From assembly GCF_900142675.1 (NCBI RefSeq), contig NZ_FRBS01000004.1, forward strand, positions 412,380-476,379: 64,000 nucleotides of DNA, given 5' to 3'. This document shows positions 13,653-30,126 of the stretch, one piece after another; the first letter of the stretch is position 1; the number at the start of each line of letters is the position of its first letter. This DNA comes from Shouchella rhizosphaerae. Its GTDB lineage: Bacteria; Bacillota; Bacilli; Bacillales; Bacillaceae_D. A program made the position numbers and the translations under genes. The notes under the pieces were generated by a model. The model was not told where the DNA came from, searched no databases, and was given only the letters and a program-made list of their open reading frames with translations.

Positions 13653-14423
13653 TTAGACCGTGATAACAATCGCATCATATCCCCGGCTCTTTAGTTCAGC
13701 AACAAGCGCTTCTGCATTGGCTTTAACCGAAAAAGCGCCAACTTGGACACGATAAAGGGAACCGCTTTGGATAATTAAGGCTTCGTAGCCGTCTGCTTGA
13801 AGTCGTGCTTGAAGGGCTTCTGCATTAGCTCGTTGGGAAAAAGCACCGGCTTGCACACGGTAAATCGTGCCGTTTCCACCGGAATTGCGCCGCAAATTGA
13901 ACGCTTGCGCCAACCCATTGACATGACCACGAGCGACGCGTGTCAAAAAGGCCGGATCCCGAAGCTTGGCCGCATCGTTGGCATGATCAATAAACAGGTT
14001 TTCTGTTAGGATGGCTGGCATCGTTGACGTACGCAACACTGCAAAATTAGCGGTTTTCTTTCCTCGGTCCCTTTCACTAAGTTGCTGCATAATTGCTGGA
14101 TGGATAATATTTTGTGCCCGAACAGACCCGCTTGTCTGCGATGTGTGAATATACGACTCAAATCCAGTCCCACCTCCAGCATTAATATGCACCGATAGAA
14201 AATAATCAGCCCCCCAGTTATTGGCCATATTCGTCCGTTCTGTTAAAGAGACGGCTGTATCGCCTGTTCGGCTCATCCGGACTTCTGCGTTTTCATATTC
14301 AGACACTAACATATCACGAATTTGCGTCGCAATTGACAATGTTAAGTTCTTCTCTTGCATACCATTTCCTACTGCACCTGGATCGTTACCACCATGTCCT
14401 GGATCAATAAAAATTTTAACCAT
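13653..14423 (-). CDS. N-acetylmuramoyl-L-alanine amidase with two SPOR repeats (phage-type endolysin)
   Basis: Cleaves the amide bond between MurNAc and L-Ala in peptidoglycan. Amidase_3 fold: IFIDPGHGGNDPG (Zn ligand His), VRMSRTGD, SVHINAG (second His) and ILTENLFIDH with the catalytic Glu. Two C-terminal SPOR modules (YRVQAGAFSQRANAEALQ and YRVQVGAFSVKANAEAL) bind denuded glycan. ATG 14423 with a perfect AAGGAGG is the start. It is the last gene of the tail/lysis cassette but is separated from the holin by a terminator-like hairpin and a 300-base leader, so its expression may be set separately. Confidence 0.9.
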   Translation of the reverse strand: MVKIFIDPGHGGNDPGAVGNGMQEKNLTLSIATQIRDMLVSEYENAEVRMSRTGDTAVSLTERTNMANNWGADYFLSVHINAGGGTGFESYIHTSQTSGSVRAQNIIHPAIMQQLSERDRGKKTANFAVLRTSTMPAILTENLFIDHANDAAKLRDPAFLTRVARGHVNGLAQAFNLRRNSGGNGTIYRVQAGAFSQRANAEALQARLQADGYEALIIQSGSLYRVQVGAFSVKANAEALVAELKSRGYDAIVITV

Positions 14424-14455
14424 AAATGATTCCTCCTTAATAATAGTAGGTGCTT

Positions 14456-14519
14456 GTCCTAAGCGTCTAAGGCTGAAGGCAGCGCCAACAGCCTTCTGCA
14501 CTATTGATAAGGATAGGAC
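14456..14519 (-). other. Structured leader upstream of the amidase, possible alternative hairpins
   Basis: In the leader on the minus strand, GTCCTA (14519-14514) and TAGGAC (14461-14456) can close an outer helix. Inside it GAAGGC (14496-14491) pairs with GCCTTC (14480-14475), and the shifted pair AAGGCTG (14495-14489) with CAGCCTT (14475-14469) is mutually exclusive with it. It matches no riboswitch class I know. The rest of the 14424-14730 gap has no gene. Confidence 0.35.
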
Positions 14520-14641
14520 TGCTCCCATCCGTAAGGGTTAATCTCCATACCTCAACTAGTGGCAGTCAACCCTTATAATCTACTTGTATGAAACAAAGGG
14601 TCTTGCCGACATGGACAAACGTTAGAAACGAATTGAATTAG

Positions 14642-14672
14642 GTGAAAAATCCCGCTGATAGCTAGGATTTCT
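14642..14672 (-). terminator. Terminator-like hairpin after the holin gene
   Basis: The minus strand reads AAATCC, a 12-base loop, GGATTT then TTC. It lies about 55 bases after the holin stop. The stem is short and the T run is brief, so termination may be partial. Confidence 0.45.
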
Positions 14673-14730
14673 CCTCTTCTTATTTCCATTACACACTAAA
14701 TTTGGAAGTTACCTATAAATCCTTTTCGTT

Positions 14731-15123
14731 TTACTTATTTGGCTTGTCTTCACCTGAGTCCCTATCATCATCGCTTTTCGCAAAACCTAACAATTTTTCC
14801 CGAATCACAGGCGGGATTTTCACTCCACTGGCCGCTAAATTTTCTACAACGCTCAAACACTCATTCGCGATATAAAAAAGCACAGTTGCCGAAGCAACCA
14901 TGCCTTTCAAATCTAAGACGATATCAATCATATTGGCAACAACAATGACAACAAAAATCCCAATTTTCTGAGCAAAGCCATACAAAGAAACCCGGCTGCG
15001 AACGCTTTTGTTTTTGATTGCTTTTGCAATGCCGGTGACAATGTCGAACACCATCAGCAATATGAGCAAGTCTAGAAATTTGACATTGCCGAAAAGGTAA
15101 AGGCGAGCGACATCTAAGGACAA
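14731..15123 (-). CDS. Phage holin
   Basis: A roughly 130-residue membrane protein of the toxin-secretion/phage-lysis holin family: LFGNVKFLDLLILLMVFDIVTGIAKAIKNK followed by two further hydrophobic segments and a charged C-terminus (KSDDDRDSGEDKPNK). Holins permeabilise the membrane to let the endolysin reach the wall. The start is doubtful: TTG 15123 is in frame, but the strong AAGGGGGG site near 15156 sits in front of a different frame that closes after seven codons, so the N-terminus may be longer through a non-standard start. Confidence 0.85.
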   Translation of the reverse strand: MSLDVARLYLFGNVKFLDLLILLMVFDIVTGIAKAIKNKSVRSRVSLYGFAQKIGIFVVIVVANMIDIVLDLKGMVASATVLFYIANECLSVVENLAASGVKIPPVIREKLLGFAKSDDDRDSGEDKPNK

Positions 15124-15236
15124 GTCAGCGAATGTGCCTATATAGCATCCCCCCTTTCAATGGCATGCTGTTGATTTCAAGCTGTTCTAGTTTCCTGTTA
15201 GTAATCCGTTAACCAAATACCATTTAATAGAGTATG

Positions 15237-15467
15237 TCACTCAGAATGGCTTTCTTGTGTTTCTTCCTGCTTCATGTCTTCCTTTTCTTTTTGCAGTAAA
15301 GCGTAAGCGTTTTTAAAGGTTTGTAATTGCGCATCGATTTCTGATAACTCTAACTCCCGCTGCCCCAGCCTTTCCGCTAAATACTCAACACGGGCGTTCG
15401 CTTTTTGTACCTCATACTCAAGTGATTGGATATATTGCTTTTGTTCAGAGGATAACTCATGACTCAC
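15237..15467 (-). CDS. Small coiled-coil phage protein
   Basis: A 76-residue, Glu/Gln/Lys-rich protein with heptad-like spacing (QKQYIQSLEYEVQKANARVEYLAERL...), predicted to be one long coiled coil. GTG 15467 has a good AAAGGAGGT seven bases upstream. It lies directly after the tail spike gene and before the holin, a place where siphoviruses often encode small tail or XkdX-like proteins. Function unknown; a structural or assembly role in the tail tip is inference. Confidence 0.65.
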   Translation of the reverse strand: MSHELSSEQKQYIQSLEYEVQKANARVEYLAERLGQRELELSEIDAQLQTFKNAYALLQKEKEDMKQEETQESHSE

Positions 15468-15468
15468 A

Positions 15469-18400
15469 TCAGCGACCTCCTTTCAGAGCATTGACTTGCT
15501 TTTGAATCTCTTTAATCGCGTTTGCCTGTTCTTTCATTATCCGGTCTTGCACTTTCACTTTAGCTAGAATTCCAGCGATAAAGTCATCCATTGACAATGC
15601 CGGACCTTCATCAGACGGCGTGCGAAACTCTTCCGGTAAATCCTCTGAAATAGGACCATAATTCGGTCGGACATAAGCACCGTTTCTATCGGGTGTTTTG
15701 TAGTGGTAAGACATTAATTCAACTTGATCTATTAAACGGGCGAAGTAATCCAGGTCAAGAGGTTCAATGTTTTCCTTTACGTTACGTGATGAAATTTTGT
15801 GCATCGTAAAGTAATGCATGTTATTGGTCCAAACTTCCCATAACCGGAAATTACTCATCCCTACAAGACCCCACCCAGAGGTATCAGGCCTAAAAGTCGG
15901 ATGAAGTCCCGATTTACTTGACGTATTTCCCCTTCCCATGACCCAATACCTGCTGCCGGTACTGCCACGCATTGGATCAAAACGAAACTCCCCGGACCTT
16001 GAGATAATCCGGTCGACCGAATCAATAAATGTAGAACTTGCACTGTAAATGGTAAATGTATCGTTTGTGTTTGCACCAACATAACCCATGTTTTTGCCGC
16101 CAGGGTCGAAAAACCTAACAAGGGCCGGATCGCTGCCCTGACCATTAAAATTTCGTATGCCGATTAAAATTCGGTTCCGAGCATTGCTGTCAAACGCCTT
16201 AAATCCGTCCGCATCCATCTGCACAGCCATACTGCCATTCATCGCCCTAACCATAATATTGGCTGCATCTAACGTGCCACTTGTGATTTTAGCGGCACTA
16301 ATGTCGCTAATTTTAGCGTTGGTAATCGTGGCATTTGCGATTTTCGCGTTGTCAATTTGCCCATTGCCAATTTTTGCGTTGGTGATCGCGCCATTCTCGA
16401 TCTGTGCCGTGCCGATAATGGCGTTTTGCAACTTCGCCTTGCTGATCGATGCATTAGCGATCGCAGCAGTCCCGACTGCTGCCTCTCCAATATGGGCCGT
16501 CTTAATCACGCCATTGTCAATCAACGTTTGCCCTGTGATGCGTGTTTTTGCGCCATCAATGCGGACACCCTCGCTAGATAAGTTAATAGCAGCAATGACA
16601 CCGTTTTTCTCGACACGCGCATTGATTTGATCGGCTTGTACACTTAGCTTAGACTCTGCTTGTGACAGGCGGCCACCAAGGACATTGGTCTCAGACGCCA
16701 CCAAGCTGACTTCACGAGCGGTTTGATCGATTTTTGTTTCTGCTGATGATACTCTATCTTCTATGTCCTCTGGAGCAGGCGTCCAGTCTGTAGGCTTGTT
16801 CCCCTTTTCCAATTTTATTTTTCTTATTCGGAATAGCGATTCCTCAGCATTACCCGGGATTTGAAATCTAAGCATTTTCCCCGCCGCGTTATCCTTAAAC
16901 TTAAAAACGTAAGTATAAGTTTGCCACCCATCCGAGGCTGGAATGTTAAAAACATCCCTGGCCCAACTATTGTTTACGCGGGAGAAAACCCTAAACTCTA
17001 GTGTACGACTAACATCTGCTTCAAAAGATATTACATACTCTTGTCCATTTAGAAATCCTTGTGTATCTGCGACATTTGTAGAACCTAACTGGTAATATCG
17101 GTCAGTCGAAGAGTCCCCTGTGTTAGTCATAATCAAGAAATCATCCTGGTAGCTGACTGTTATGAAGTTCGCATGCGAAAATGAATCATACACTAATCTT
17201 GGTCTTTCATTGTTACAACTAGATCGTGAGATTAAATTTCTTCCGCCTATTTCCAGATTGTCGAAATCCGAACGAAGTTCAGTAATGGATGTGCTAAATC
17301 GATCAGCCCTCAACTCTAGCTGAGATGTTCGACTACTGACATTAGTGATAGCTCCGGCATTATTATCTACTCTTGTCTCCACGTTTGAAACATCGGCCTT
17401 TAGCCCATTAATTGTTGTCTCAAAATTAGACTGTTTCTCTGACACTCCTTCAACCGTCTTGCTCAGTTCGCCAAAATCAGTCTTTAACCCGCTAGCGGTT
17501 AACTCTAATTCGCCAATTTGGCTGGAGAGTTGCCCTGTCGTGTCCTCAAACTCGTCCTTGGTGATTCGTGCAGAAATGGCGTCTGCATTGGCTCGTATGT
17601 CTGCTTCTTGAGCACTCAGCTTTCCGTCTATATTCGTTAAACGGCTAGCTGTCGCCGATAGTTCGCCTTCGATGACGTCTACGTTAGTGGCGATGTTAGA
17701 TACAGTCCCATTAATATCGCCAACCTCACGGGTTAAATTATCGGTAATGCTGTCTAACTCAGCTAGTTTGCCATCTGTGAATTGGAACTTGCCGTCGACA
17801 TACTCTAACCCGGCTTTTTCGGCCAATTCGCTATTTATTTGCTCGGTAACCGCCTTAATTTCCTCATCGGTGTATTGCTTAGCGTCCTGCTGTAATTGCT
17901 CGCGGACCGACTCTTCCAGTTGATCCAAGTTAATCGACCCATCGGCAATAATTTGCGCTTCCTTACTTAGTTCGCGCAGTTTGGCAGCCAAGTCTTCGCC
18001 AAAGAAAATGTCCTCTGATACGATTCGTGCTGTCGTAGCGCTCACTTCTTCCGACAAAGGTGAGTAACGCTCGTAATAGTTAAAAGCACGGACACGGAAA
18101 TAATACTGTTTATTCGGTTCTCCATGAAAGCTATAAGTATTGCCAATCCCTCGGTAAACGAGTGTTTCTGGGCTTCCTGCAAATCCTTGTACTTCGCTTG
18201 CATAGACTTCATAACCTGCAATATACGTATCTAAATGGCTAAAATCCCATTCCACCATGACGGCAGCATATAAACCGGTCGCTGTCACATTAGCAGGTAT
18301 TTCAGGAACAATGTCCGGATATGAATTGGGCTGAATTGGCCTCCCCGCCCGATCCCATACATGGGAATTCTCTTTCACTTTTGCCAGCACCCGTTCTACT

Positions 18401-19524
18401 TCTTGGTTTGGACTTGAAAAAAGCGGCAGAAACTCCCCTAATACGACTTCATCATTGCTAGGATCAAGCAAGTCGCGTTTCAGCTCAATTACTCTCGTTT
18501 TTTCTTGGATGACCGGATAAATGTCTTCATCAAGGACAGCGGCCGTGTCTCCTAATTGAATACGTTCATGTTCAAAATTGGATAGTCTGAATAAATCGAC
18601 AACCTTTCCAGAATAATGGACAAGTGGCGTACATACCGTTTGCAAATATTCATAGGTTTGTTCCAATAAACGGACAGGGTTGTCTTCATCCGATTCTTCC
18701 AAAATGCCAAAGCGGTGCCTTTTTCCTTCATAATCCCCTCGTCCCCATAAGGCTCTTGCCTGTTCATCGCCAAGCCAGTCTTGCCCTTTTGGTTTATCAA
18801 TAGGGTCGCCTTTCGCTTTGCTCCATTCGATCTCTTTAAACGTAATCGGTTTGCCTTGGTCCCCGTTTTCATCCTCAGTCGGTTTCCCGTAAGCTCTGAT
18901 CGCCGTTTTGACACTGCTCATATCAATCGTGCGTTCAATTTCAGTTAAGTCTTTTCTATATTCAAATCGTTTGCCAGTATCTGCCCCTCGGCGTGAAAGA
19001 ATATCAATGTACCGACCGGTAATTTTGCTTCCGTCAATGGTCACACGGCATCTTAGTTCGCCCTTAAACGTATTTAACAACTCGGCTACACAATATTTGG
19101 CATTGGTTTGGCCAAATTCTACAGGAGCTTCCCCTAACTCGGCAACGACGCCTGGCTGCCAACGTGTCCGTGCAAGAATACTAGAAAGGGCTTGCCTTGC
19201 GTTTGTCCGATGAAACTGAATATGTTCTATAGGTTCATCAAGCAGTTCATTGACTGCATGTTCACATATAACCGTTTTATAGGCAGCATCGCCATGGCGA
19301 TCTTCTACAACCACAATTTCAAAAAGTTGAAAATCGCCATCGACATCATAAAAAGCAACTTGTTGTCCTTCAACGATTTCAAGGGCATGGTCACAATCAG
19401 CAAGGATTGTAAATTCAAAGGAATGTGCATTGTTTAGCTGTTCTGTATGAACCGCTTCAATTAAATGCCGTTCATCGAGAACAGCTCTGCATGTTTCGTG
19501 CTTATCAAAAATGAATACGTTCAT
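15469..19524 (-). CDS. Tail tip/spike protein: prophage tail endopeptidase-like base, FN3, coiled coil, carbohydrate-binding-like and S74 chaperone domains
   Basis: A 1351-residue protein. The first ~370 residues resemble the phage minor structural / tail endopeptidase base (MNVFIFDKHETCRAVL start). A fibronectin III-like module follows (PANVTATGLYAAVMVEWDF). After that come long coiled-coil repeats and a jelly-roll-like module (NLISRSS... KIKLEKGNKPTDWTPAPED). A helix of INNAKI/ITNAKI-type repeats leads to a C-terminus with SSRNVKENIEPLD, whose Ser-Lys arrangement matches the self-cleaving peptidase S74 intramolecular chaperone of trimeric spikes. The protein probably recognises the target cell wall. 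ATG 19524 has AGGGGGA upstream; the longer frame from 19551 overlaps the previous gene. Confidence 0.85.
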   Translation of the reverse strand: MNVFIFDKHETCRAVLDERHLIEAVHTEQLNNAHSFEFTILADCDHALEIVEGQQVAFYDVDGDFQLFEIVVVEDRHGDAAYKTVICEHAVNELLDEPIEHIQFHRTNARQALSSILARTRWQPGVVAELGEAPVEFGQTNAKYCVAELLNTFKGELRCRVTIDGSKITGRYIDILSRRGADTGKRFEYRKDLTEIERTIDMSSVKTAIRAYGKPTEDENGDQGKPITFKEIEWSKAKGDPIDKPKGQDWLGDEQARALWGRGDYEGKRHRFGILEESDEDNPVRLLEQTYEYLQTVCTPLVHYSGKVVDLFRLSNFEHERIQLGDTAAVLDEDIYPVIQEKTRVIELKRDLLDPSNDEVVLGEFLPLFSSPNQEVERVLAKVKENSHVWDRAGRPIQPNSYPDIVPEIPANVTATGLYAAVMVEWDFSHLDTYIAGYEVYASEVQGFAGSPETLVYRGIGNTYSFHGEPNKQYYFRVRAFNYYERYSPLSEEVSATTARIVSEDIFFGEDLAAKLRELSKEAQIIADGSINLDQLEESVREQLQQDAKQYTDEEIKAVTEQINSELAEKAGLEYVDGKFQFTDGKLAELDSITDNLTREVGDINGTVSNIATNVDVIEGELSATASRLTNIDGKLSAQEADIRANADAISARITKDEFEDTTGQLSSQIGELELTASGLKTDFGELSKTVEGVSEKQSNFETTINGLKADVSNVETRVDNNAGAITNVSSRTSQLELRADRFSTSITELRSDFDNLEIGGRNLISRSSCNNERPRLVYDSFSHANFITVSYQDDFLIMTNTGDSSTDRYYQLGSTNVADTQGFLNGQEYVISFEADVSRTLEFRVFSRVNNSWARDVFNIPASDGWQTYTYVFKFKDNAAGKMLRFQIPGNAEESLFRIRKIKLEKGNKPTDWTPAPEDIEDRVSSAETKIDQTAREVSLVASETNVLGGRLSQAESKLSVQADQINARVEKNGVIAAINLSSEGVRIDGAKTRITGQTLIDNGVIKTAHIGEAAVGTAAIANASISKAKLQNAIIGTAQIENGAITNAKIGNGQIDNAKIANATITNAKISDISAAKITSGTLDAANIMVRAMNGSMAVQMDADGFKAFDSNARNRILIGIRNFNGQGSDPALVRFFDPGGKNMGYVGANTNDTFTIYSASSTFIDSVDRIISRSGEFRFDPMRGSTGSRYWVMGRGNTSSKSGLHPTFRPDTSGWGLVGMSNFRLWEVWTNNMHYFTMHKISSRNVKENIEPLDLDYFARLIDQVELMSYHYKTPDRNGAYVRPNYGPISEDLPEEFRTPSDEGPALSMDDFIAGILAKVKVQDRIMKEQANAIKEIQKQVNALKGGR

Positions 19525-19541
19525 TCTATCCCCCTCTCCCT

Positions 19542-20261
19542 TTATAACCATTTCTCCTTATATGCGATCTCTACTGTCGCAGTTTCGGGATGAACGGCAA
19601 TATGATTTTCTCCAGGATGTAAAAATAGATCTTTAAATCCTGAACGCAGATCAAGCAAAGGCATCGCCCATTCATCGTTATAGCGGATCGCTGACTTTTC
19701 ACTGTCAATCACAACCCGGTCGCCTGAATGGAACATTCGATTTAACTTAAATCGGTTCCCGTCTTTTTCTATTTGTACGTTTTCTGCTTCTTCATGGAAA
19801 AGAATCGAGTAAACCGGCATCGCTGGTGCAGTAGCTACATAGTCGACAGCTATGCTACCTGTGAAATCAAGCTCTTTTTTTGCCCCTTCTGCGACGGGAT
19901 CCGATACTTGAAAGACTAATTTTCCCGTTTTCAACAACCCTTTGCCTGTAAAATCGGAAAAGTCGACTACAAATGCATGATAGGCTTTATCTGGCTCATC
20001 AAAAAATACCAGTTTTCCTTCTTCTGCTGAAAGGTAATAAGCCATTTCCCGCATTGCTTTTCTTTGTTCTTCATAACTTGTGGAAATCATTAAAACATCA
20101 AGCTCGATCAAGTACTCGCCCCACCGTTTATTTGAAGCATGGACGCCGTGGTGGACTTCCGTGTTCGTAAATTTCCGTGGCGGCAATGAGGCACGATTGT
20201 CATCGACCAGTTTGAGCCACTTTGAAAAATTCACGCCATTAAAAGAAAACCAAGCATTCAT
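19542..20261 (-). CDS. Distal tail protein (siphovirus Dit-like)
   Basis: A 239-residue protein of the siphovirus distal-tail family: MNAWFSFNGVNFSKWLKLVDDNRA at the N-terminus, a typical tail-hub sequence, and FFDEPDKAYHAFVVDF in the middle. Dit forms the hub joining tail tube and spike. ATG 20261 is preceded by AAAAAAGGAGGCG, so the 24 residues that could be added upstream are not real. Its end overlaps the upstream frame of the spike gene. The gene order tape measure - Dit - spike is the canonical siphovirus order. Confidence 0.85.
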   Translation of the reverse strand: MNAWFSFNGVNFSKWLKLVDDNRASLPPRKFTNTEVHHGVHASNKRWGEYLIELDVLMISTSYEEQRKAMREMAYYLSAEEGKLVFFDEPDKAYHAFVVDFSDFTGKGLLKTGKLVFQVSDPVAEGAKKELDFTGSIAVDYVATAPAMPVYSILFHEEAENVQIEKDGNRFKLNRMFHSGDRVVIDSEKSAIRYNDEWAMPLLDLRSGFKDLFLHPGENHIAVHPETATVEIAYKEKWL

Positions 20262-20277
20262 TTTCTCGCCTCCTTTT

Positions 20278-22059
20278 TTAGTAGTGTCCTCTTGCACGCT
20301 GTGCCATTTGTCCTCTCCGTCCAAGTTCAACATCCATAAACGGTGCGGTCACTTTAGCAATTTGTTTGCCTTCAAGGTGGACTGGCACTTCAATCGTCAT
20401 GTTGCTAGAAGGATTTGCTGACAGTCCCTGCAACTCTCTTGCTTGTACATTGCTATCTAGCCGCGCCAACCCCCGGCCAAGTGAAGAACCAATGTCGTGA
20501 AGAGAAGGCAGTGTTAATGCTTTCTCAAATGCATGTTCAATTTTTGGCACATCTCGGTAAATTGAGTCTTTAATTGGTCCTCCAAAGTTAAGACGGTGAA
20601 TGTCTTGCAGTGGGCCTTCTTTAGCAGGTGAGAAAGGCAAGAAATCCCGTATCTTTCCAGCGACATTAGAAATTGCATTTTTCACTGCCCCAATTGCACT
20701 AGTAATTCCTTCTGCAATGCTATTAACAATGTTTTTCCCTGCTTCGCGAAAACGGCCAACAAAATTCAAGACCGCTTGCCAGGCGCTTTGAATTCCATTA
20801 GAGATAGCCGTTTTGATATTAGTCATTGCAGTTGTCACACTTGAACGGACAGCGTTAAAAATGGTTGTAAATGTGGTTTTTATCGCATTAAGAGCACTTG
20901 TTACCGCTGTACGGGTCGCCGAAATTCCGGTTGAAATAAAATTCTGTACAAAGCTAATCGCCGTTGTAACTACATTGCGAACAGCATTAAATACAGTTAA
21001 AAATACTGTCCTAATTGCCGTTAATACAGTTTGAACCACATTCGAGGCTGTTGTTAAGCCAGTTGAAATGGCATTGCGGATAAAGCCCATTACTGTCATG
21101 ACTACGTTTTGAATAGGAGTAAAAATGGTGGAGAAAAACGACCTTATTCCATTTAATGCCGTCAAAAACAAATTACTTATTGCTCCCCACATTTTTGAAA
21201 AAACACCCATTAAACCGGTAAACAAAGAACTAGCAATTTTTAAAAGCCGCCCAAACAATAACAACTGAACGACGTTCCATATCGCTTCAAGCGCGCCAGA
21301 AAAAAGCTGCTTAATGCCTTCCCACATTAAAGAAAAGTCTCCAGTAAAAAGACCTGCAAACGCCTTTACTAGCCCTATGATGATGTTCAATGCTCCCGAA
21401 ATGACTCCTTGAATATTGCCCCATACCATTTGAATAAGCGACACAATGAACGGCCAAACAAATTGCATAATCGCCAAAATGCCGTTCATAACTGGTTCAA
21501 TAATGCTCTTTATTCCATTAAAGATATTGGTTACTGCTTGCATAACAGCAGCCCCGTGCTCATCCCAAAACGCTTTGATTTGCGCCAGTTTTTCAGAAAC
21601 AAAAGTAACAATTGTAGCCACTACCGTTTCCATCGTGGTCTTTATGGCCTCCCACGCTTGGATTACACCATTGCGAAACGTTTCATTTGTCTGCCAAAGA
21701 TACATAATGCCTGCAACAAGAGCGGCAATTGCGGCGGTAGCGAGTGCTATCGGTACAATAAATCCTGATAAAGAGGTTACTATTCCTCCTAAACCGCTTA
21801 CAATCACTGGTATTATTGTTGCTAGGCCATCAAAAGCTGCTTTAATAGCTACTATACCGAGTAAGGATGTCCCGGCTCCTGATATAAGACCTAAAAAAAC
21901 CTCTCCCCAATTGCCCTCTGCAAAGCCTTGTGTCACCTTATTAACTTCAAGAACTATATTTTTTAAGCTTTGTTCTAAGCCCGCCAGAGCCTTTCCGCTT
22001 TTTTCTATATCGTCAAAATTAAGTCTAACATTTGCTGACTCTCCTATTGAAATCGCCAT
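20278..22059 (-). CDS. Tail tape measure protein
   Basis: A 593-residue protein, small for this family. Features: an N-terminal helix, a hydrophobic stretch (VPIALATAAIAALVAGIMYLW), many aromatic helical repeats such as WNVVQLLLFG and VFNAVRNVVTTAISFVQN recurring about every 11 residues, and a C-terminal conserved segment IRDFLPFSPAKEGPLQDIH. Tape-measure length sets tail length; by the usual 1.5 angstrom per residue the tail would be near 90 nm (inference). ATG 22059 is chosen because AAAGGGGGA lies upstream; ATG 22062 and 22077 are alternatives. Its first bases overlap the stop of the frameshifted chaperone. Confidence 0.9.
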   Translation of the reverse strand: MAISIGESANVRLNFDDIEKSGKALAGLEQSLKNIVLEVNKVTQGFAEGNWGEVFLGLISGAGTSLLGIVAIKAAFDGLATIIPVIVSGLGGIVTSLSGFIVPIALATAAIAALVAGIMYLWQTNETFRNGVIQAWEAIKTTMETVVATIVTFVSEKLAQIKAFWDEHGAAVMQAVTNIFNGIKSIIEPVMNGILAIMQFVWPFIVSLIQMVWGNIQGVISGALNIIIGLVKAFAGLFTGDFSLMWEGIKQLFSGALEAIWNVVQLLLFGRLLKIASSLFTGLMGVFSKMWGAISNLFLTALNGIRSFFSTIFTPIQNVVMTVMGFIRNAISTGLTTASNVVQTVLTAIRTVFLTVFNAVRNVVTTAISFVQNFISTGISATRTAVTSALNAIKTTFTTIFNAVRSSVTTAMTNIKTAISNGIQSAWQAVLNFVGRFREAGKNIVNSIAEGITSAIGAVKNAISNVAGKIRDFLPFSPAKEGPLQDIHRLNFGGPIKDSIYRDVPKIEHAFEKALTLPSLHDIGSSLGRGLARLDSNVQARELQGLSANPSSNMTIEVPVHLEGKQIAKVTAPFMDVELGRRGQMAQRARGHY

Positions 22060-22756
22060 CATCTTCCCCCTTTCCATTTGTTCGCTTCCATTTGCATGTT
22101 GCCTTCATCCCATTCGGCGGCGCTGCGTTTCTTTTTGTCTTGCAAAAAACGCTGGAAGGCGCTGTCTTCGGGCAAGCCTCTAACAAATACTAAGAACCGC
22201 CTCCAAGATAGGCGGTTCTCAAATCCCTCTTTTGTTAAATTTATGCCATAAAACCGGTAGAAATCTGCTTCTAACGCTGCCCACGCCCAAATGATTATCC
22301 GCGAATCTTGGTTTTTTTTTGCGCCGCGGCTGATTGTGCGCCTGAGCCTTTGACATCATATCCCCAAAGTTTCATAATGTCAGGCACAATATGTTTAAAA
22401 ACGAAATTGACGCCTGCTTTCGACTGTTCGAGATGGGCTAGAAATTCCTTCCCTAACATTAGTTCAATAAATTCATACATTTTTTCTTCTGGCACAGCCA
22501 TTTGCGTTTTGCCTCTCACTTTTTGTACACAGTGCCGAAAGTAAAATGTTGCAAACTGGAAGGGCATTTCAGTTGGAATTTGAAAATATTCGCCCGCAAA
22601 CTTGACGTACTGATGCTTTTGTTCATTCGCTAGCTCAGCTAAAGCATCATCATAATCGGCAACAAGCTGTTCTTGTTGGATTTTGGCCAGCTCTTCCGCC
22701 TTTTCATTTAGCAATTGCAAACGGTCCGCCGAGTTATTCGCCACCTGGAGCACCAT
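22059..22756 (-). CDS. Tail assembly chaperone, long -1 frameshift product (gpGT-like)
   Basis: If the ribosome slips back one base in the nine-A run (22320-22312), translation continues for about 86 codons without a stop and ends at TGA 22061-22059, overlapping the tape-measure start. The extension includes IIWAWAALEADFYRFYGIN and WRRFLVFVRGLP, resembling Gp15-like chaperone C-termini. In lambda the GT fusion links tail tube subunits to the tape measure. The extension has no start codon of its own with a ribosome site, which supports production by frameshift only. Confidence 0.75.
22295..22756 (-). CDS. Tail assembly chaperone, short product (gpG-like)
   Basis: The zero-frame product, about 153 residues, rich in charged residues: NEKAEELAKIQQEQLVADYDDALAEL, then TEMPFQFATFYFRHCVQK, and ending QKKTKIRG at a TAA. 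Helical, between major tail protein and tape measure, the place of the tail chaperone in siphoviruses. The start is uncertain: ATG 22756, GTG 22744 or TTG 22765 are possible, all overlapping the end of the major tail gene. It binds the tape measure during tail assembly and is not kept in the finished tail (family knowledge). Confidence 0.75.
   Translation of the reverse strand: MVLQVANNSADRLQLLNEKAEELAKIQQEQLVADYDDALAELANEQKHQYVKFAGEYFQIPTEMPFQFATFYFRHCVQKVRGKTQMAVPEEKMYEFIELMLGKEFLAHLEQSKAGVNFVFKHIVPDIMKLWGYDVKGSGAQSAAAQKKTKIRG
22312..22320 (-). promoter_or_regulatory. Slippery A9 site for programmed -1 frameshift
   Basis: Minus strand: CAA AAA AAA ACC in the zero frame, giving the A AAA AAA heptamer needed for tandem slippage. 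The zero-frame stop follows 15 bases after the run and the -1 frame is open to 22059. Confidence 0.7.
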
Positions 22757-23162
22757 CTTCCACAACTGCTTGTTTTGTGTTTACCCGGAACTCGCCAGAG
22801 AATGTATATACACCTTCAGATACAGAACCTTCCTCTTCATACGTAGTAAAGAACCCTGTTAAAGCGTATCCAGCTCCGTTTGCGTCTGTATGCTTAATAA
22901 CTGCTTCTTGACCTAATTCAGCTACCCGTTTTAACTCTGTTTGGCCATCATCTTCAAGTAGTGCGATCCCTTCCATCGCCACCGTCTCCCCTACAGACGC
23001 AGCAATGAACTTTTGGCGGAAAACGCCGCCACCTTCAACTGTATCCCCAAGACCAGTTACATCCGCCTCTTCAACCTCTAGTGAGTGTGTGAAAGACGTT
23101 AATTTTGCTACTACTCGTCCATTTACTTCTACTCGTGTTCCAACAAATTTCTTTTCTGCCAT
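22734..23162 (-). CDS. Major tail (tube) protein
   Basis: A 142-residue protein beginning MAEKKFVGTRVEVNGRVVAKLTSFTHSLEVEEADVTGLGD, with Gly-rich beta strands and a C-terminal YTFSGEFRVN strand typical of phage tail-tube proteins. ATG 23162 has a GGAGGAATTGAC ribosome site. A longer frame up to 23324 is open by chance and crosses the promoter; it is not used. It is the first gene of the cassette: nothing resembling head completion, capsid or terminase genes precedes it. Confidence 0.75.
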   Translation of the reverse strand: MAEKKFVGTRVEVNGRVVAKLTSFTHSLEVEEADVTGLGDTVEGGGVFRQKFIAASVGETVAMEGIALLEDDGQTELKRVAELGQEAVIKHTDANGAGYALTGFFTTYEEEGSVSEGVYTFSGEFRVNTKQAVVEDGAPGGE

Positions 23163-23282
23163 GTCAATTCCTCCAAAATTATAGTTTCTCCGTTTACCCA
23201 AAGCAAAGGCGGTGCCGGCACCATTAACAAATGGATAACGAATGTGCAGCTCGGTTTTAGCTAACCTTGCTACACTACCATC

Positions 23283-23311
23283 ATAATACGGAACGAGCGT
23301 TCGATTCTGTC
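23283..23311 (-). promoter_or_regulatory. Probable promoter of the tail operon
   Basis: TATTAT (23288-23283) is a good -10. A weak -35 (GACAGA, 23311-23306) lies 17 bases upstream. The transcript would begin about 115 bases before the major tail gene. The spacer is filled by the LexA-like palindrome. Confidence 0.5.
23290..23303. promoter_or_regulatory. LexA/DinR (SOS) box in the tail operon promoter
   Basis: GGAACGAGCGTTCG: core GAACGAGCGTTC matches the Bacillus LexA pattern GAACRNRYGTTC at every defined position. It sits between the -35 and -10 of the tail promoter, where bound LexA would block RNA polymerase. It is also in the divergent upstream region of the gene at 23394. Confidence 0.65.
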
Positions 23312-23393
23312 GTGTTTCTGCCATGATTCTGCCACGATTATGGTAAGATAAGAGAAATAGGAGAACACCTTTACGAAAGGATGGTTGCTAGCT

Positions 23394-24224
23394 ATGGAAC
23401 ACACTTTTAAAGGGCAAGGGTCAACATTAGTAGTTTTAGAAGATAAATTAATCCTAAAACATGGAAGAAATAAACGCTTCACTAGTAGTCCTACTGTAGA
23501 AATCAAATATTCGGACCTCGATAAGTTGATTTTACAAAAACCAAGTATTGTCTCAGGCTATTGTTATTTTCTACGTAAAGGATTTGATATTCAGGATCTC
23601 TCCAAACTAGATATTATGGCTGACGAATACGCTATAACAATATCTTTTGCCCATCAGTTTAAACGTTTTCTAAAAGCTGAAAAGCTTATTAATCAATATC
23701 TGGATAATATAGACCAAAATGATACTCCCGTAGTATCTTTTGCTCACGAGAAATTACTAAATGAACTAATAAATGGGAAGACAAAAAGCTATGACTATAG
23801 TGGTTTGACTGGGAGTATAGTTATTTCAAAAAGTACGATAACGTTAAAATATAAAAAGTTTCTACATACTGGAGGAAAAGGTTCAAAAACAGTAGATATC
23901 CAAAAAATCTCTAGCGTATCCGTATCAAAACCAACTATGACAAGTGGAAAAGTTAAAATTCATTACGAAGGGTTTGCTAATCGGGGTTACTATAGTCCAA
24001 AAGAAGAGGCTAACGAAATCACGATCACAAACATTAATCAATACAACCAAATGCTTGAAGCCAAGGAGCTCATTCTCGCTCTCAAACGTTATCTTGAGAA
24101 TCAAGTACATTCGACTGATTCGCTCTCCCCCGCCGACGAAATCCGCAAGTATAAATCATTGTTTGATGAGGGTATCATTTCTGAAGAGGAATTCGAGAAA
24201 AAGAAGAAGGAATTGCTTAATTAA
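23394..24224 (+). CDS. Hypothetical protein with DUF4429-like repeats and C-terminal SHOCT domain
   Basis: A 276-residue protein. Two repeated beta-rich modules of a DUF4429 type are visible (KGQGSTLVVLEDKLILKHGR and TGSIVISKSTITLKYKKFLHTG), each followed by an IKYSDL/VDIQKISSV-type strand. The C-terminus PADEIRKYKSLFDEGIISEEEFEKKKKELL is a canonical SHOCT helical hairpin. No membrane segment. Function is unknown; SHOCT domains occur in phage and mobile-element proteins. It is divergent from the tail operon and shares its promoter region. The start may be ATG 23394 or TTG 23385. It is more AT-rich than the neighbouring genes, consistent with transfer. Confidence 0.75.
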   Translation: MEHTFKGQGSTLVVLEDKLILKHGRNKRFTSSPTVEIKYSDLDKLILQKPSIVSGYCYFLRKGFDIQDLSKLDIMADEYAITISFAHQFKRFLKAEKLINQYLDNIDQNDTPVVSFAHEKLLNELINGKTKSYDYSGLTGSIVISKSTITLKYKKFLHTGGKGSKTVDIQKISSVSVSKPTMTSGKVKIHYEGFANRGYYSPKEEANEITITNINQYNQMLEAKELILALKRYLENQVHSTDSLSPADEIRKYKSLFDEGIISEEEFEKKKKELLN

Positions 24225-24479: not shown

Positions 24480-25667
24480 TTAACTACACACTTTCTCCTT
24501 CGCTTCATCCGCAACGGCCTTGGCCACGGCAGGGGCAATTCGTTCATCGAACGGAGACGGGAGAATGTGGCCGGCATGCAAGTCTTGCCCAACAATGTTC
24601 GCAATTGCTTTTGCAGCTGCCAGCTTCATCGAGGTGGTGATGGTGCTAGCGCGGGCTTCCAAGGCGCCGCGGAAAATGCCGGGGAAGGCAAGAACGTTAT
24701 TAATTTGGTTCGGAAAGTCTGAACGTCCAGTGCCCACAACGGCCGCACCAGCAGCGGACGCATCTTCTGGGTAAATTTCAGGCGTCGGATTAGCGAGAGC
24801 AAATACAACAGCATCGCTATTCATCCGCTTGACTTGTTCGCCTGTTAAGGCGCGAGGGCCGGAGACGCCAATGAAGACATCGGCGCCTTCGATTGCTTGG
24901 TCGAGCTTGCCGGTAAGATGACGTCGGTTTGTTTGGGCCGCTAATTCTTTTTGGCGTTGGTTTAGCCACGGCTCGTTTTCTTGGACAATTCCTTCTAAGC
25001 TGACAAGGGTGATGTCGCTGCAACCTGCTTCTAGCAAAAGCGTGGCGATTGAAAGGCCTGCTGCCCCTGCCCCGTTGATGACAATGCGGGCGCTGTTCAA
25101 CCCTTTATCGACGACTTTTAATGCATTGATTAGCGCAGCTAGGACAACGATCGCTGTGCCGTGCTGGTCGTCGTGGAAAACCGGGATGTTTAGTTCTTCC
25201 TGTAGGCGTTGCTCAATCTCAAAACAACGGGGCGCAGCAATGTCTTCCAAATTAATACCGCCAAATGTAGGCGCGACCGCTTTAATTGTCGCGACAATTG
25301 CATCGACGTCTTGTGTCTCTAAACAAAGCGGGATTGCATCCACTCCGGCAAATTGCTTAAATAAAACGGCCTTTCCTTCCATAACTGGCATAGCCGCTTC
25401 TGGCCCAATATTGCCAAGACCAAGCACTGCAGAGCCATCCGTAACAATGGCGACAAGGTTGCCCTTAATGGTATGGTCGTATACTTCGTCTTTATTCTCA
25501 GCGATGCGCTTGCATGGCTCAGCTACGCCAGGCGTATAAGCGAGGCTCATATCGTATTCATTTATTAAAGGGACTGTGCTTTTCATTTCCATTTTCCCAT
25601 GCTTATGCAGCGCAATCGCTGCCTCCCTTTGCTTTCGTGCTTGTAACACGTTATCATACTCCTTCAT
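24480..25667 (-). CDS. NAD(P)-dependent malic enzyme
   Basis: A 395-residue cytosolic enzyme converting malate to pyruvate and CO2. Short bacterial malic-enzyme type: the N-terminal SLAYTPGVAEPCKRI, the LGLGNIGPEAAMPVMEGKAVLFK segment and the Asp/metal region EDIAAPRCFEIE are conserved. The Rossmann fingerprint is INGAGAAGLSIA. The C-terminus has the acidic NAD(P) part. It precedes no reductase but lies just downstream of a malate-type symporter (4-base gap), so the two form a transcription unit for malate use. B. subtilis YtsJ and MalS-type enzymes are the likely relatives; cofactor preference cannot be read from the sequence. Confidence 0.9.
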   Translation of the reverse strand: MKEYDNVLQARKQREAAIALHKHGKMEMKSTVPLINEYDMSLAYTPGVAEPCKRIAENKDEVYDHTIKGNLVAIVTDGSAVLGLGNIGPEAAMPVMEGKAVLFKQFAGVDAIPLCLETQDVDAIVATIKAVAPTFGGINLEDIAAPRCFEIEQRLQEELNIPVFHDDQHGTAIVVLAALINALKVVDKGLNSARIVINGAGAAGLSIATLLLEAGCSDITLVSLEGIVQENEPWLNQRQKELAAQTNRRHLTGKLDQAIEGADVFIGVSGPRALTGEQVKRMNSDAVVFALANPTPEIYPEDASAAGAAVVGTGRSDFPNQINNVLAFPGIFRGALEARASTITTSMKLAAAKAIANIVGQDLHAGHILPSPFDERIAPAVAKAVADEAKEKVCS

Positions 25668-25670
25668 TTC

Positions 25671-27020
25671 TTAAAGTCCTAACCAACGTAATACAAATGT
25701 TGCTAAAATAACCGTCCCTGCTCCGCCTAGTCGCGTCGCTACTTGCGCAAACGGCATTAGGCTCATGCGATCGGACGCCGATAAAATGGCGACATCGCCT
25801 GTACCGCCTAGGCCGCTGTGGCAACCGGTGACAATCCCCGAGTCGACAGGGTGCATGTTAAGCCACTGTCCGACAAAATAGCCGGTTGCGATCATGGCAA
25901 AGACGACTGTGGCGCAAATCAGGACGTAGGAAAAGCTAATAATGCCTGCCACATCTTCAAGGGGAATAAACAACAATCCAAGCCCTACCATAAGCGGCCA
26001 CGTAAAGCTTGTTGATACAAACTTATATAAATGAAAAGCGCCTTGCTCAAGTTGTTCAGGAATCAGCTTTAATACTTTCGCAATCGCAGCAATCAAGATC
26101 ATTAAAATTGCTGCTGGAATATGCAAGCTCGATTCCATTAAGTGGCCAAACACATAAAAACTGCAAGCAACGAGGAGCCCAGCTCCCATTAGCGCAAAAT
26201 TGACTGGTTTTGTATCATCAATCGATTTCGGCATTACTGGCCCTTTTGTCTTAACAAGCACTCCTTTTCCTGTAAGATGGGGCTTTTTTGCGCCGAGCTG
26301 TTTTAAAAGGGCTGCTCCGATAATGGCAAAGATATTGCCGATGATCGCTGCCGGAATTAACTGTGATATTAATTCAGCCGCAGGTATTCCAAGAATCGTG
26401 CTGTACCCAGCTGACAACGGCAAAATGCCTTCGCCAATGCCGCCTGCCAAAATAGGCACAACAATAAAAAACAATGTATGCTTTGCCTCATAGCCGAGTA
26501 AAAGGCCCATGCCGACTCCTGCAGCCATTGAGACAGCGGTTCCGGCAACAAGAGGAACCAACATTTTCGTGATTCCTTGCATGAGTACCACGCGGTTCAT
26601 GCCAAGAATGCTGCCAGCTACTAAACAAGCAATATAGAAATATAAAAAGTTAGATGTCGTCATTAAATTCGATACAGCATTTACAGTTGTTTCATTTAAC
26701 CATCCAAAAAACATGAATGCGGAGGGTACGAACAGTGCTAGTATTGCTGGGCCGCCAATGCTTTTTATAATCGGCAGGCGGGAACCAATTTCCCCAAGTA
26801 ACATTCCGGCTACCATAATAATCGCAAACCCGCCAATCATGTCAGCAGGCAATTTTTGAAAATACGCTGCAGCCAGGACGATGGCAGCAATAGCTATATA
26901 AATAGGGAAAGGCAACACTCCTACCTTCCAATAAAAGGGGTTCCAGCGAGAGGATGCTCGATCATGTTCATGCTGGTATTTTCGCTCGCTTGGCTCTGAA
27001 ACCGTTTTTATTTGCTCCAA
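25671..27020 (-). CDS. maeN: 2-HCT family Na+:malate (citrate/malate) symporter
   Basis: A 449-residue membrane protein of the 2-hydroxycarboxylate transporter family, about eleven hydrophobic helices. Diagnostic are the two re-entrant GGXG-type motifs VPILAGGIGEGILPLSAGYS and TGCHSGLGGTGDVAILSASDRM. It imports malate (or citrate) with Na+. The symbol maeN is given because it sits with a malic enzyme and a malate-type two-component system, as in B. subtilis; CimH-type citrate/malate exchange is an alternative. ATG 27020 has an AGGAGG site upstream. Confidence 0.85.
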   Translation of the reverse strand: MEQIKTVSEPSERKYQHEHDRASSRWNPFYWKVGVLPFPIYIAIAAIVLAAAYFQKLPADMIGGFAIIMVAGMLLGEIGSRLPIIKSIGGPAILALFVPSAFMFFGWLNETTVNAVSNLMTTSNFLYFYIACLVAGSILGMNRVVLMQGITKMLVPLVAGTAVSMAAGVGMGLLLGYEAKHTLFFIVVPILAGGIGEGILPLSAGYSTILGIPAAELISQLIPAAIIGNIFAIIGAALLKQLGAKKPHLTGKGVLVKTKGPVMPKSIDDTKPVNFALMGAGLLVACSFYVFGHLMESSLHIPAAILMILIAAIAKVLKLIPEQLEQGAFHLYKFVSTSFTWPLMVGLGLLFIPLEDVAGIISFSYVLICATVVFAMIATGYFVGQWLNMHPVDSGIVTGCHSGLGGTGDVAILSASDRMSLMPFAQVATRLGGAGTVILATFVLRWLGL

Positions 27021-27084
27021 TTGAAAGACCTCCTCGTTTCTTGCTTTATCTTAAACAAGCTCGAGCAGGGTGAATAGTTTATGT

Positions 27085-27099
27085 AAATAAGCGCTTTCT
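27085..27099 (-). promoter_or_regulatory. Possible cre site upstream of maeN
   Basis: AAATAAGCGCTTTCT matches 13 of 15 positions of the loose CcpA pattern WTGNAANCGNWNNCW. It lies 65-79 bases before the maeN start. Carbon-catabolite control of malate uptake would make sense, but the match is weak. Confidence 0.25.
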
Positions 27100-27137
27100 T
27101 TTTGTAATTAAAAAAAGCAGGCCTTTCTTTTAAACTC

Positions 27138-27175
27138 AAAACGAAATAAGCCAGTTATTGATTCTAACTGGCTGG
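27138..27175 (-). terminator. Terminator of the two-component operon
   Basis: GCCAGTTA and TAACTGGC form an eight-pair stem (27151-27173), followed on the minus strand by TTATTTCGTTTT. Confidence 0.6.
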
Positions 27176-27220
27176 AATCCGTCCTAACCTGGCAAAACAG
27201 TAGGCTAGGGCACGTATTCG

Positions 27221-29547: not shown

Positions 29548-29582
29548 AAATGTCTCCTTCTTCCTGATCCTAACAGGCAGTA

Positions 29583-29627
29583 TAGCACAAAAAAGACCAG
29601 CGTTCATTTGCTCATGAACGCTGGCAA
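29583..29627 (-). terminator. Terminator of the ArpU-like gene
   Basis: CCAGCGTTCAT and ATGAACGCTGG (11 pairs, six-base loop) followed on the minus strand by TCTTTTTTG. It isolates the gene at 29643 from the kinase gene downstream. Confidence 0.85.
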
Positions 29628-29642
29628 CGTGTTGACGTTCGC

Positions 29643-30068
29643 TCAGATGCCTTCCAACTCTCCCTGTTCTTCCTCCCACACAGAAAACAAATAGTGTAGC
29701 TTTGTAAACGCCCTGTTTTTTATGCGGTAATATTGGCGCTCGCTAATGAGCATATCCATGTATACTTGATAATCAAACCGGTCTGCCTCTTGCAAATAGC
29801 GGCGGACAATCAACTCCCGCTCAGCAGGCGGCAAGCGATTGACACATTGTTCGATCATCGTCATGTAGTTCTTCCTTTTTTGGGCTGCTTCAATATTTTT
29901 TAGCGCTGTCTGTTCGGTTGTAGAAAAGAACGATCGAGCTCCCGTGTGAGCAGGAACGAATTGAAAGCTCTGTGTCGTCTTTGGAAGTTCTTCATAGGCC
30001 ATTGTCAGGCGATAAAGATTGTACGTTTCAAGTTTTTTTTCGACATAGCGTTTTTCCGTTTTGTTCAT
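29643..30068 (-). CDS. ArpU-family phage late-gene transcriptional regulator (orphan)
   Basis: A 141-residue protein of the ArpU/RinA class. The C-terminal half has ...LPPAERELIVRRYLQEADRF..., then DYQVYMDMLISERQYYRIKNRAF, the sigma-region-4-like helix-turn-helix of this family. ArpU-type proteins switch on packaging, structural and lysis genes of phages (family knowledge). No other phage gene lies next to it; the tail cassette is 5 kb downstream. ATG 30068 is chosen because AAGGGGA lies seven bases upstream; ATG 30074 is too close to it. A GAAC-N4-GTTC palindrome stands in its upstream region. Confidence 0.75.
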   Translation of the reverse strand: MNKTEKRYVEKKLETYNLYRLTMAYEELPKTTQSFQFVPAHTGARSFFSTTEQTALKNIEAAQKRKNYMTMIEQCVNRLPPAERELIVRRYLQEADRFDYQVYMDMLISERQYYRIKNRAFTKLHYLFSVWEEEQGELEGI

Positions 30069-30096
30069 AGCCATTCCCCTTCATGTTCGCTTTCCT

Positions 30097-30126
30097 ACTA
30101 AAGAGAACGAAGGTTCGCTAAATCAA
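30097..30126 (-). promoter_or_regulatory. Putative promoter of the ArpU-like gene
   Basis: TTGATT (30126-30121) and TTTAGT (30102-30097) with 18 bases between. Both hexamers are imperfect. The LexA-like palindrome occupies the spacer. Confidence 0.35.
30104..30117. promoter_or_regulatory. GAAC-N4-GTTC palindrome, possible LexA box, upstream of ArpU-like gene
   Basis: AGAACGAAGGTTCG (or CGAACCTTCGTTCT on the other strand). The two outer half-sites are perfect, the central four bases fit the LexA pattern less well than at the tail promoter. It lies about 36-49 bases before the gene start. Confidence 0.4.

Follow-up and report, generated by a model that had tools for sequence, protein, structure and literature searches.

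The Listeria monocin is a headless bacteriocin. The account of it in PMC6872733 describes a tail-like bacteriocin module and a lysis module, 10.7 kb long in L. innocua and inherited vertically in most of the genus, under the control of a CI-like repressor and the MpaR anti-repressor. Rhizoviticin, an alphaproteobacterial system, is described in PMC10811719 as a headless F-type tailocin locus with SOS-dependent activity. Here we report a probable locus of this kind from Shouchella rhizosphaerae, in a stretch of 64,000 nucleotides (the window; contig NZ_FRBS01000004.1). Positions 13653-23162 of its minus strand encode a tail tube, a frameshifted tail assembly chaperone, a tape measure protein (TMP), a distal tail protein (Dit), a Tal/spike, a coiled-coil protein, a holin and an amidase, with chromosomal genes on either side. 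This locus is very probably an F-type tailocin that became domesticated in the chromosome of Shouchella and its nearest relatives, and would most likely be directed against related bacteria. A second reading is put forward tentatively, as possible but short of probable: no earlier tailocin may have had an immunity gene that is dedicated to it and evolves with it, as would be the case here. In this reading an exchangeable TMP cassette is neutralised by a cognate protein with tandem PH-like domains and a SHOCT hairpin, paralogues act against other types, two specificity parts (a Tal region for the receptor and the TMP cassette for the lethal step at the membrane) are exchanged independently, and host LexA and an ArpU-type activator provide the control without a phage repressor.

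Like the Listeria monocin, the locus combines tail and lysis modules, and the tubes matched by its tube model include the monocin entries 9j1k, 9j1j and 8qhs, a likeness by tube fold only. Unlike the monocin, it has LexA-type boxes, an ArpU-like activator and the divergent tandem-PH/SHOCT gene, and no repressor was seen; no CI-like repressor with an MpaR metalloprotease module was found in the open reading frame (ORF) lists of the locus, which were read by eye without a hidden Markov model (HMM) search for helix-turn-helix repressors. It resembles rhizoviticin as an F-type tailocin locus, and its LexA-type boxes make it a candidate for SOS control. The rhizoviticin locus has its own LexA-family repressor gene, thought to be CI-like, as well as DnaB- and RuvC-like genes (PMC10811719), whereas the boxes here point to the LexA of the host. 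The tail, lysis and specificity features of the window are the following.

13653..14423, minus strand: amidase (Amidase_3 and SPOR; Pfam 6.5e-48 and 7.9e-20), an N-acetylmuramoyl-L-alanine amidase and lysis enzyme; the ORF extends to 14528, with a probable start at about 14423
14731..15123, minus strand: holin (Phage_holin_4_1, Pfam 5.7e-30; phrog_199, 2.9e-23)
15237..15467, minus strand: 76-aa coiled-coil protein downstream of Tal, an ORF 93-95% identical to the G004, G010 and G011 versions
15469..19551, minus strand: Tal/spike (Prophage_tail N-terminal part, 5.9e-37; C-terminal Peptidase_S74, 9.1e-6; phrog_19445, 3.3e-126)
16670..17345, minus strand: swappable Tal region, candidate receptor-binding domain, about residues 735-960, edges approximate
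19542..20261, minus strand: Dit (SPP1_Dit, 1.8e-19; phrog_202, 3e-31); the ORF extends to 20333, with a probable start at about 20261
20278..22077, minus strand: TMP, an ORF of 599 aa (phrog_58, 1.3e-69)
21695..22000, minus strand: exchangeable hydrophobic N-terminal TMP cassette, about residues 25-120, seen as a DNA island
22059..22308, minus strand: -1 frame extension of the chaperone (gpT-like), from the A9 slippery run and a -1 frame conserved in 10 of 10 loci
22295..22765, minus strand: tail assembly chaperone, zero frame, from position and frameshift; 70-99% identity across 10 loci
22734..23162, minus strand: major tail (tube) protein, 142 aa; 75-99% identity across 9 aligned loci
23385..24224, plus strand: divergent gene of 279 aa with two PH-like domains and a C-terminal SHOCT hairpin (SHOCT, 4.6e-10), candidate immunity/exclusion gene; the start may be 23394

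The non-contractile tail set of tube, frameshifted chaperone, TMP, Dit and Tal is thus present, and a lysis cassette of holin and amidase accompanies it. From the tail promoter on, the gene order is tube, chaperone, TMP, Dit, Tal, coiled coil, holin and amidase. The ORF list between the flanks and the Pfam and PHROG scan of ten candidate ORFs revealed neither a gene for a contractile sheath nor one for a baseplate wedge. The tube and the chaperone were assigned without a significant profile match: neither matched Pfam, and their PHROG matches, though weak, named the expected functions (E 0.06 to a major tail protein and E 0.021 to a tail assembly chaperone). In Foldseek, the structure model of the tube (predicted local distance difference test score, pLDDT, 63; predicted template modelling score, pTM, 0.60) matched the tubes of lambda, 80alpha, SPP1 and the monocin, with a best E of 8.2e-4 and a template modelling (TM) score of about 0.4. 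Hcp proteins, which have a related fold, matched the model as well, so the tube fold call is moderate yet consistent. The chaperone assignment is supported by its position and by the -1 frameshift, in which the A9 run lies 14 nt ahead of the zero-frame stop. The TMP is a single open ORF of 509-660 aa in nine of the ten tail loci compared. Tal consists of the Prophage_tail N-terminal part, coiled coils, an exchangeable middle and the C-terminal Peptidase_S74 domain. A Pfam scan of the 76-aa coiled-coil protein gave nothing above the cut-off. The tube probably starts at ATG 23162 (ribosome-binding site GGAGG) and not at 23324, which leaves 23163-23384 as promoter and leader.

The genome holding the window (G000) is 4.24 Mb long, 99.99% complete and related to Shouchella clausii. 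Its locus was compared with those of nine relatives, from collections with one genome per species: Shouchella clausii AKU0647 (G004), S. tritolerans FJAT-45399 (G011), S. oshimensis DSM 18940 (G003), putatively S. miscanthi AK13 (G012), Bacillus sp. JCM 19041 (G006), Halalkalibacterium halodurans DSM 497 (G015) and three further members of the genus of the window (G008, G009 and G010). The order tube-chaperone-TMP-Dit-Tal is common to all ten loci. Of 13 genomes of the genus (the named ones mostly Shouchella), 9 have the tube-chaperone-TMP core, as does Halalkalibacterium. The chaperone gene, with one open copy per genome, was found in the same number of genus genomes and in 10 of the 41 genomes of the family; among 397 genomes sampled from the order, 4 have it. 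No chaperone match was obtained in G001, G002 or G007, nor in G005, which has lost the tails. The end of coiled coil, holin and amidase matches that of the window only in G004, G010 and G011, and partly (amidase) in G009. The same nitroreductase gene adjoins the locus in G000, G004, G009, G010 and G011, and the tail end has other neighbours in G003, G008, G012 and G015. In G003, G008 and G012 the tail tip differs, with about 22% (Dit) and 26% (Tal) identity to the proteins of the window, and the tube and chaperone are 84-89% identical. The other tail-tip module found there, and partly in G015, has a Tal of about 500 aa followed by proteins of 304, 949 and 353 aa (e.g. L034 5892-13122 in G008); the 304-aa protein is split into two shorter ORFs in G015. 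The amidase adjoins the activator in G003, G008 and G012, and no holin was recognised there.

The ratio of nonsynonymous to synonymous substitution rates (dN/dS) was estimated for the window genes against G004, G010 and G011. It was 0.013-0.015 for the tube, 0.06-0.09 for the chaperone, 0.06-0.08 for the holin, 0.03-0.07 for the amidase, 0.09-0.15 for the coiled coil, 0.11-0.16 for Dit, 0.24-0.25 for Tal and 0.18-0.29 for the TMP, whose value is raised by the cassette. The chromosomal neighbours gave 0.01-0.08 and the SHOCT gene 0.21-0.42. Every tail and lysis gene is therefore well below 1, and the tube, amidase and holin resemble the chromosomal neighbours. The preliminary description had reported a single-strand series of intact tail and lysis genes between chromosomal flanks. 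All the genes it named are present and open on the minus strand, and the flanks look chromosomal in the ORF lists, which were read by eye for ORFs of at least 110 aa without an HMM scan. The comparison of frames and dN/dS that it proposed shows the order kept in the nine relatives and broken frames only in G006. The locus thus appears to be maintained by selection as a unit, the exceptions being the poorly assembled G006, with its broken frames, and G005, which has lost the tails.

No capsid, portal, terminase, integrase or replication gene was seen in the window ORF lists read by eye. The portal families PF04860 and PF05133 and the terminase families PF03354 and PF04466 had no match in the own genome, where capsid, integrase and replication families were not searched; each of these searches gave matches in 2 to 4 of 14 control genomes. 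The earlier statement that head and packaging genes are absent holds for the neighbourhood and for these four families genome-wide. The tube and chaperone had no tblastn match at E 0.01 among 50,697 phage records, and the SHOCT protein had no match among phage records. A search of IMG/VR with the tube returned one contig, whose ORFs match the G009 locus.

The interpretation as an F-type tailocin, proposed in the preliminary description, is supported as a maintained tail-only bacteriocin by the gene order in nine relatives, the low dN/dS, the absence of four head-gene families and the exchanged Tal cassette, and further by gene content, the tube fold, the frameshift in all ten loci, the lack of a phage match and the LexA-type boxes. 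Several observations weigh against it. No tail-terminator gene was recognised at the locus. The TMP and Tal frames are broken in G006, the TMP being in two pieces, although housekeeping ABC transporter genes are broken there as well and the assembly is poor (86% complete, 290 contigs). In G005 the genes from tube to Tal are lost; the remnant keeps the LexA-type box, a palindrome, two SHOCT genes, the activator and the amidase. A 94-aa ORF (L093 9479-9763) lies downstream of the retained box and palindrome, where the tail operon was lost.

The state of G005, in which one SHOCT copy is also broken, the broken frames of G006, the missing chaperone in G001, G002 and G007, and the presence of phage-type genes without a head would fit a prophage that has decayed until nothing but its tail and lysis genes remained, without function. 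Such decay is highly improbable, since the core order, the frameshift site and the promoter sites are conserved across species, dN/dS is well below 1, and the lack of a phage-record match for tube and chaperone points to long separate maintenance. It is also very unlikely that the tails serve another job than killing competitors, for instance by equipping a helper-dependent element, by working as a gene transfer agent or by injecting material into other cells of the population. A precedent is the Streptomyces contractile nanoparticle, for which PMC13277306 describes TMP-related effectors that tune the physiology of the producer itself. However, none of the four portal and terminase families was matched in the own genome, and the lysis cassette and the swappable Tal region fit release and target choice.

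The control of the locus was examined from the following sites and genes.

23212..23221: 10-bp palindrome GTGCCGGCAC in the tail operon leader, at the same place in 9 of 10 tail loci and the G005 remnant
23291..23303, minus strand: LexA/DinR-type box at the tail operon promoter, exact CGAACNNNNGTTC
23305..23338, minus strand: 11-bp tandem repeats TGGCAGAATCA and TGGCAGAAACA with a degenerate copy, candidate activator site beside the tail box
29643..30074, minus strand: ArpU-like late transcriptional activator (phrog_248, 6.7e-25)
30105..30117, minus strand: second LexA/DinR-type box, upstream of the activator, exact match to CGAACNNNNGTTC

Two sites in the 64 kb have the exact CGAACNNNNGTTC pattern, one of them at the tail promoter and the other immediately upstream of the activator gene. 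GAACN4GTTC is found at the tail promoter in nine of the ten loci (not in G015) and in the G005 remnant, its centre varying. The lexA gene of the own genome has GAACAACTGTTC upstream. A single site in the own genome, and none in the control, has the two-copy repeat pattern TGGCANAANCNTGGCANAANC. The palindrome is kept while the surrounding sequence drifts, and it is not enriched genome-wide (3 sites, control 3). A promoter scan gave no sigma-70-like promoter at the tail start. Other results speak against the LexA link: the exact GAACN4GTTC box precedes the activator in only 4 of 10 activator-bearing loci (G000, G004, G010 and G011), no exact LexA-type box was found in the recA stretch of the own genome, and when up to one mismatch is allowed the window shows no excess of sites (8, against 12.57 expected from shuffles). 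Because this last count is not above the shuffles, the argument for LexA rests on the placement and conservation of the sites. On these grounds the LexA/ArpU wiring of the locus is probable, and we infer that LexA binds the boxes and the activator the 11-bp repeats.

The activator lies beside one or more SHOCT genes in eight relatives (G003, G004, G005, G006, G008, G009, G011 and G012) and, although outside the range first described, belongs to the locus. That range held for the tail and lysis genes, but the divergent plus-strand gene at 23385 (or 23394)-24224 inside it had been left unnamed. The account of the locus likewise stood for the tail and lysis set and had missed the activator, the LexA-type boxes and the co-variation of the divergent gene. 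In the window and in G010, a malic enzyme, a citrate-type transporter and a two-component pair (24480-29679) separate the SHOCT gene from the activator. This malS-citS-regulator-kinase block was considered as a part of the tailocin and rejected: outside G000 and G010 it adjoins the locus in G003, G008 and G012, while G004, G006, G009 and G011 lack it at this place. On one IMG/VR contig (L102 6483-8366), an ArpU-like ORF was seen by eye near a SHOCT-ending gene, just before packaging-like genes, an arrangement that may hint at a phage ancestor of the regulator-SHOCT pair.

Within the clausii group (G000, G004, G010 and G011), the tail and lysis DNA is mostly 88-100% identical except in two places, the Tal region and the TMP cassette. 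In the Tal region, G000 and G004 are 44-64% identical in four 150-bp bins and 83% in one edge bin, with 90-99% in the flanking bins, and the edges are sharp. A PDB sequence search with this region gave four weak matches, two of them to carbohydrate-active enzymes (1gui, E 0.057; 1uxz, E 0.92). The TMP types share 20-30% of their amino acids at residues 31-90, 43-63% at 91-120 and at least 90% from 121 on. The cassette has three transmembrane-like segments at 60-78, 75-93 and 106-124, and more follow further on at about 197-250. Mosaic blocks also occur elsewhere, for example in the TMP middle in G012. The TMP of G009 (L038 12679-14661) has an N-terminus about 100 aa longer, with two GNW-containing stretches, and its conserved LW motif is at residue 224 instead of 119-133.

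The divergent SHOCT protein was modelled with a pLDDT of 82, and Foldseek matched tandem-PH proteins at E 1.9e-5, with a whole-chain TM score of only 0.2-0.3. No 19-residue window exceeded the transmembrane threshold of 1.6 in any of 18 SHOCT sequences, so the protein looks cytosolic. Its type follows the TMP cassette. G000 and G004 share 64% identity in both, G010 and G011 share 96% in the TMP N-terminus (TMP-N) and 92% in SHOCT, and between these two groups the values fall to 44-49% (TMP-N) and 28-31% (SHOCT). Over the 11.3 kb from the nitroreductase to the end of the SHOCT gene, G004 and G011 diverge in just two places, the TMP cassette and the SHOCT gene: 9 of 76 bins of 150 bp are below 90%, three at the cassette and six at the SHOCT gene and the promoter edge, and the rest are at least 94%. 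Between the two islands their DNA stays at 98-100% identity in the chaperone and tube genes and at 94% in the bin of the promoter. In G006, TMP-N and SHOCT both join G010/G011 in the trees (support 85/99 and 95/95), whereas tube and chaperone place G006 outside the clausii group. G008 and G012 are 100% identical in both TMP-N and SHOCT, with 94% in the rest of the TMP. A weaker second case is G003 versus G008, with 57-92% in SHOCT and 82-93% in the TMP cassette, against 99-100% in the adjoining TMP and 95-99% in chaperone and tube (DNA); at the protein level, TMP-rest is 99%, TMP-N 85% and SHOCT 70%.

Across the ten genomes, the similarity of the core cassette correlated with that of the proximal SHOCT gene (Pearson 0.89, 0 of 10,000 permutations; Spearman 0.66, 5 of 10,000). 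For the whole TMP N-terminus, the Pearson coefficient was 0.83 and the partial coefficient given tube and chaperone 0.77 (each 0 of 5,000). The partial value was 0.67 without G012 (7 of 5,000), 0.90 without G012, G009 and G015 (9 of 5,000), and 0.80 without G006 and G012 with TMP-rest in the background (5 of 5,000). The sample is small and related, and these permutation counts are not clean probabilities. An alternative partner, the swappable Tal region, was rejected: G004 and G011 have Tal proteins 99.7% identical and SHOCT proteins 38% identical, and G011 and G010 have SHOCT proteins 92% identical, yet their Tal regions diverge. The SHOCT gene therefore co-varies with the presumed toxic module (the TMP cassette) and not with the targeting module (Tal), with G009 as a misfit and few lineages.

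Each locus has one to three SHOCT genes, and extra paralogues are found in G003, G008, G009 and G012. G001, without a chaperone match, has two related SHOCT genes. In one of its regions (L094 297-10545), an RHS protein with a Tox-URI2 domain is followed by several small ORFs, a leucine-rich repeat protein and a SHOCT gene 5 kb downstream of the RHS protein; several small genes around it have no Pfam match, and by eye the whole has the look of a polymorphic toxin followed by an immunity array. In IMG/VR, 70 loci have relatives of the SHOCT gene, one being a G009-type locus, and 54 of the 70 match only from residue 208 on. Eight prophage contigs from IMG/VR were inspected by eye, and in six of them no more than 3 kb separates a SHOCT-ending gene from ORFs that look like integrases and repressors.

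A number of results count against an immunity role matched to the TMP cassette. The SHOCT protein of G009 is like those of G000 and G004 (54-55% identity), but its TMP N-terminus is not. Between G003 and G008 the tail-tip bins are also at 81-97%, so the cassette bins are not lower than many of these, and this pair stands out little from its background, which weakens the immunity reading slightly. G008 and G012, identical in TMP-N and SHOCT, are not independent. No fork of the TMP-N tree was starred, the core cassette was trimmed after the data were seen, and in rank terms the association of the whole TMP N-terminus with SHOCT is weak (Spearman 0.35, partial 0.21). In G005, where the tails are lost, one SHOCT copy carries a stop and the other is intact.

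The main rivals of the immunity reading are a role in assembly and a by-product of recombination. The tandem-PH/SHOCT protein might be an assembly partner or regulator that binds the TMP N-terminus in the producer: co-variation shows functional coupling only, and a protein that looks cytosolic could hold the hydrophobic cassette during assembly. This is rather unlikely, because the gene lies outside the tail operon and faces away from it, the tails already own a chaperone with a conserved frameshift, extra paralogues occur in the same locus of four genomes, SHOCT relatives persist in G001, away from this tail locus, and in G005, where the tails have gone, and on the six prophage contigs SHOCT-ending genes are close to integrase-like and repressor-like ORFs. 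Recombination hot spots, or one tract over both places, could also produce the co-variation of the TMP cassette and SHOCT gene, and the few separable lineages, the mosaic TMP middle of G012, the small contrast between G003 and G008 and the misfit of G009 would agree with this. Against it, the synonymous divergence (dS) in chaperone and tube is 0.01-0.02 for G004-G011 and about 0.08 for G011-G010, values that a single tract would hardly explain; a tract from a G010-like donor would have brought a G010-like middle, and G004 and G011 are 98-100% identical between the islands. The Tal region also does not follow SHOCT. An origin of the co-variation in recombination is therefore considered unlikely.

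In the model proposed for the locus, the system would work as follows. On DNA damage, LexA would leave its two boxes, and the ArpU-like activator gene and the tail promoter would be freed. The activator would then bind the 11-bp repeats, and a headless tail would be built on the TMP. Tail length is 0.15 nm per TMP residue, and 599 aa would give about 90 nm. Holin and amidase would lyse the producer, and Tal would bind a surface glycan of the target through its exchangeable middle region. The TMP would be released, and its hydrophobic N-terminal cassette would enter and depolarise the target membrane. Non-producing kin would be protected by the tandem-PH/SHOCT protein, which would recognise the cassette of the cognate TMP on the inner side of the membrane. 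Both the route of killing and the step of immunity are proposed only from co-variation and genomic context.

HK97 gp15 is grouped with Tab and SNIPE as an exclusion protein that recognises the TMP. According to PMC10884400, Tab recognises the TMP made by invading phages, and SNIPE is described as associating with the incoming TMP (PMC13190303); the term SHOCT is not in the main texts of these two papers. Unlike Tab, SNIPE and HK97 gp15, which act on phages, the candidate here is paired with a tailocin encoded beside it. In S-type pyocins and colicins, the killing module and the immunity gene are exchanged jointly, and the present locus resembles them in joining a presumed killing module to a linked candidate immunity gene, although those are single protein toxins. 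The pairing of killing module and linked immunity gene in S-type pyocins is described in PMC13295577. Two papers (PMC8319346, PMC13295577) state that tailocins lack known, or dedicated, immunity genes, and tailocin self-resistance has been explained by lipopolysaccharide in the account of PMC12090994. A B. clausii genome paper (PMC6937992) lists bacteriocins via BAGEL3 and has no word beginning with "phage". Among the matches listed from the open-licence literature, no account of this locus or of any tailocin immunity gene was found.

The sparing of kin by a producer is usually ascribed, in these sources, to receptor mismatch (PMC12090994, PMC8319346, PMC13295577). If the proposed role is true, a TMP-directed immunity gene would be a second layer of specificity for tailocins. 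G004 and G011, with Tal proteins nearly identical and TMP-cassette/SHOCT types different, form a pair in which an effect of TMP and SHOCT could be told apart from that of the receptor. Such an immunity gene would also point to the N-terminus of the TMP as the lethal part of a non-contractile tailocin, and tailocin immunity would be linked to the phage exclusion systems that recognise tape measure proteins.

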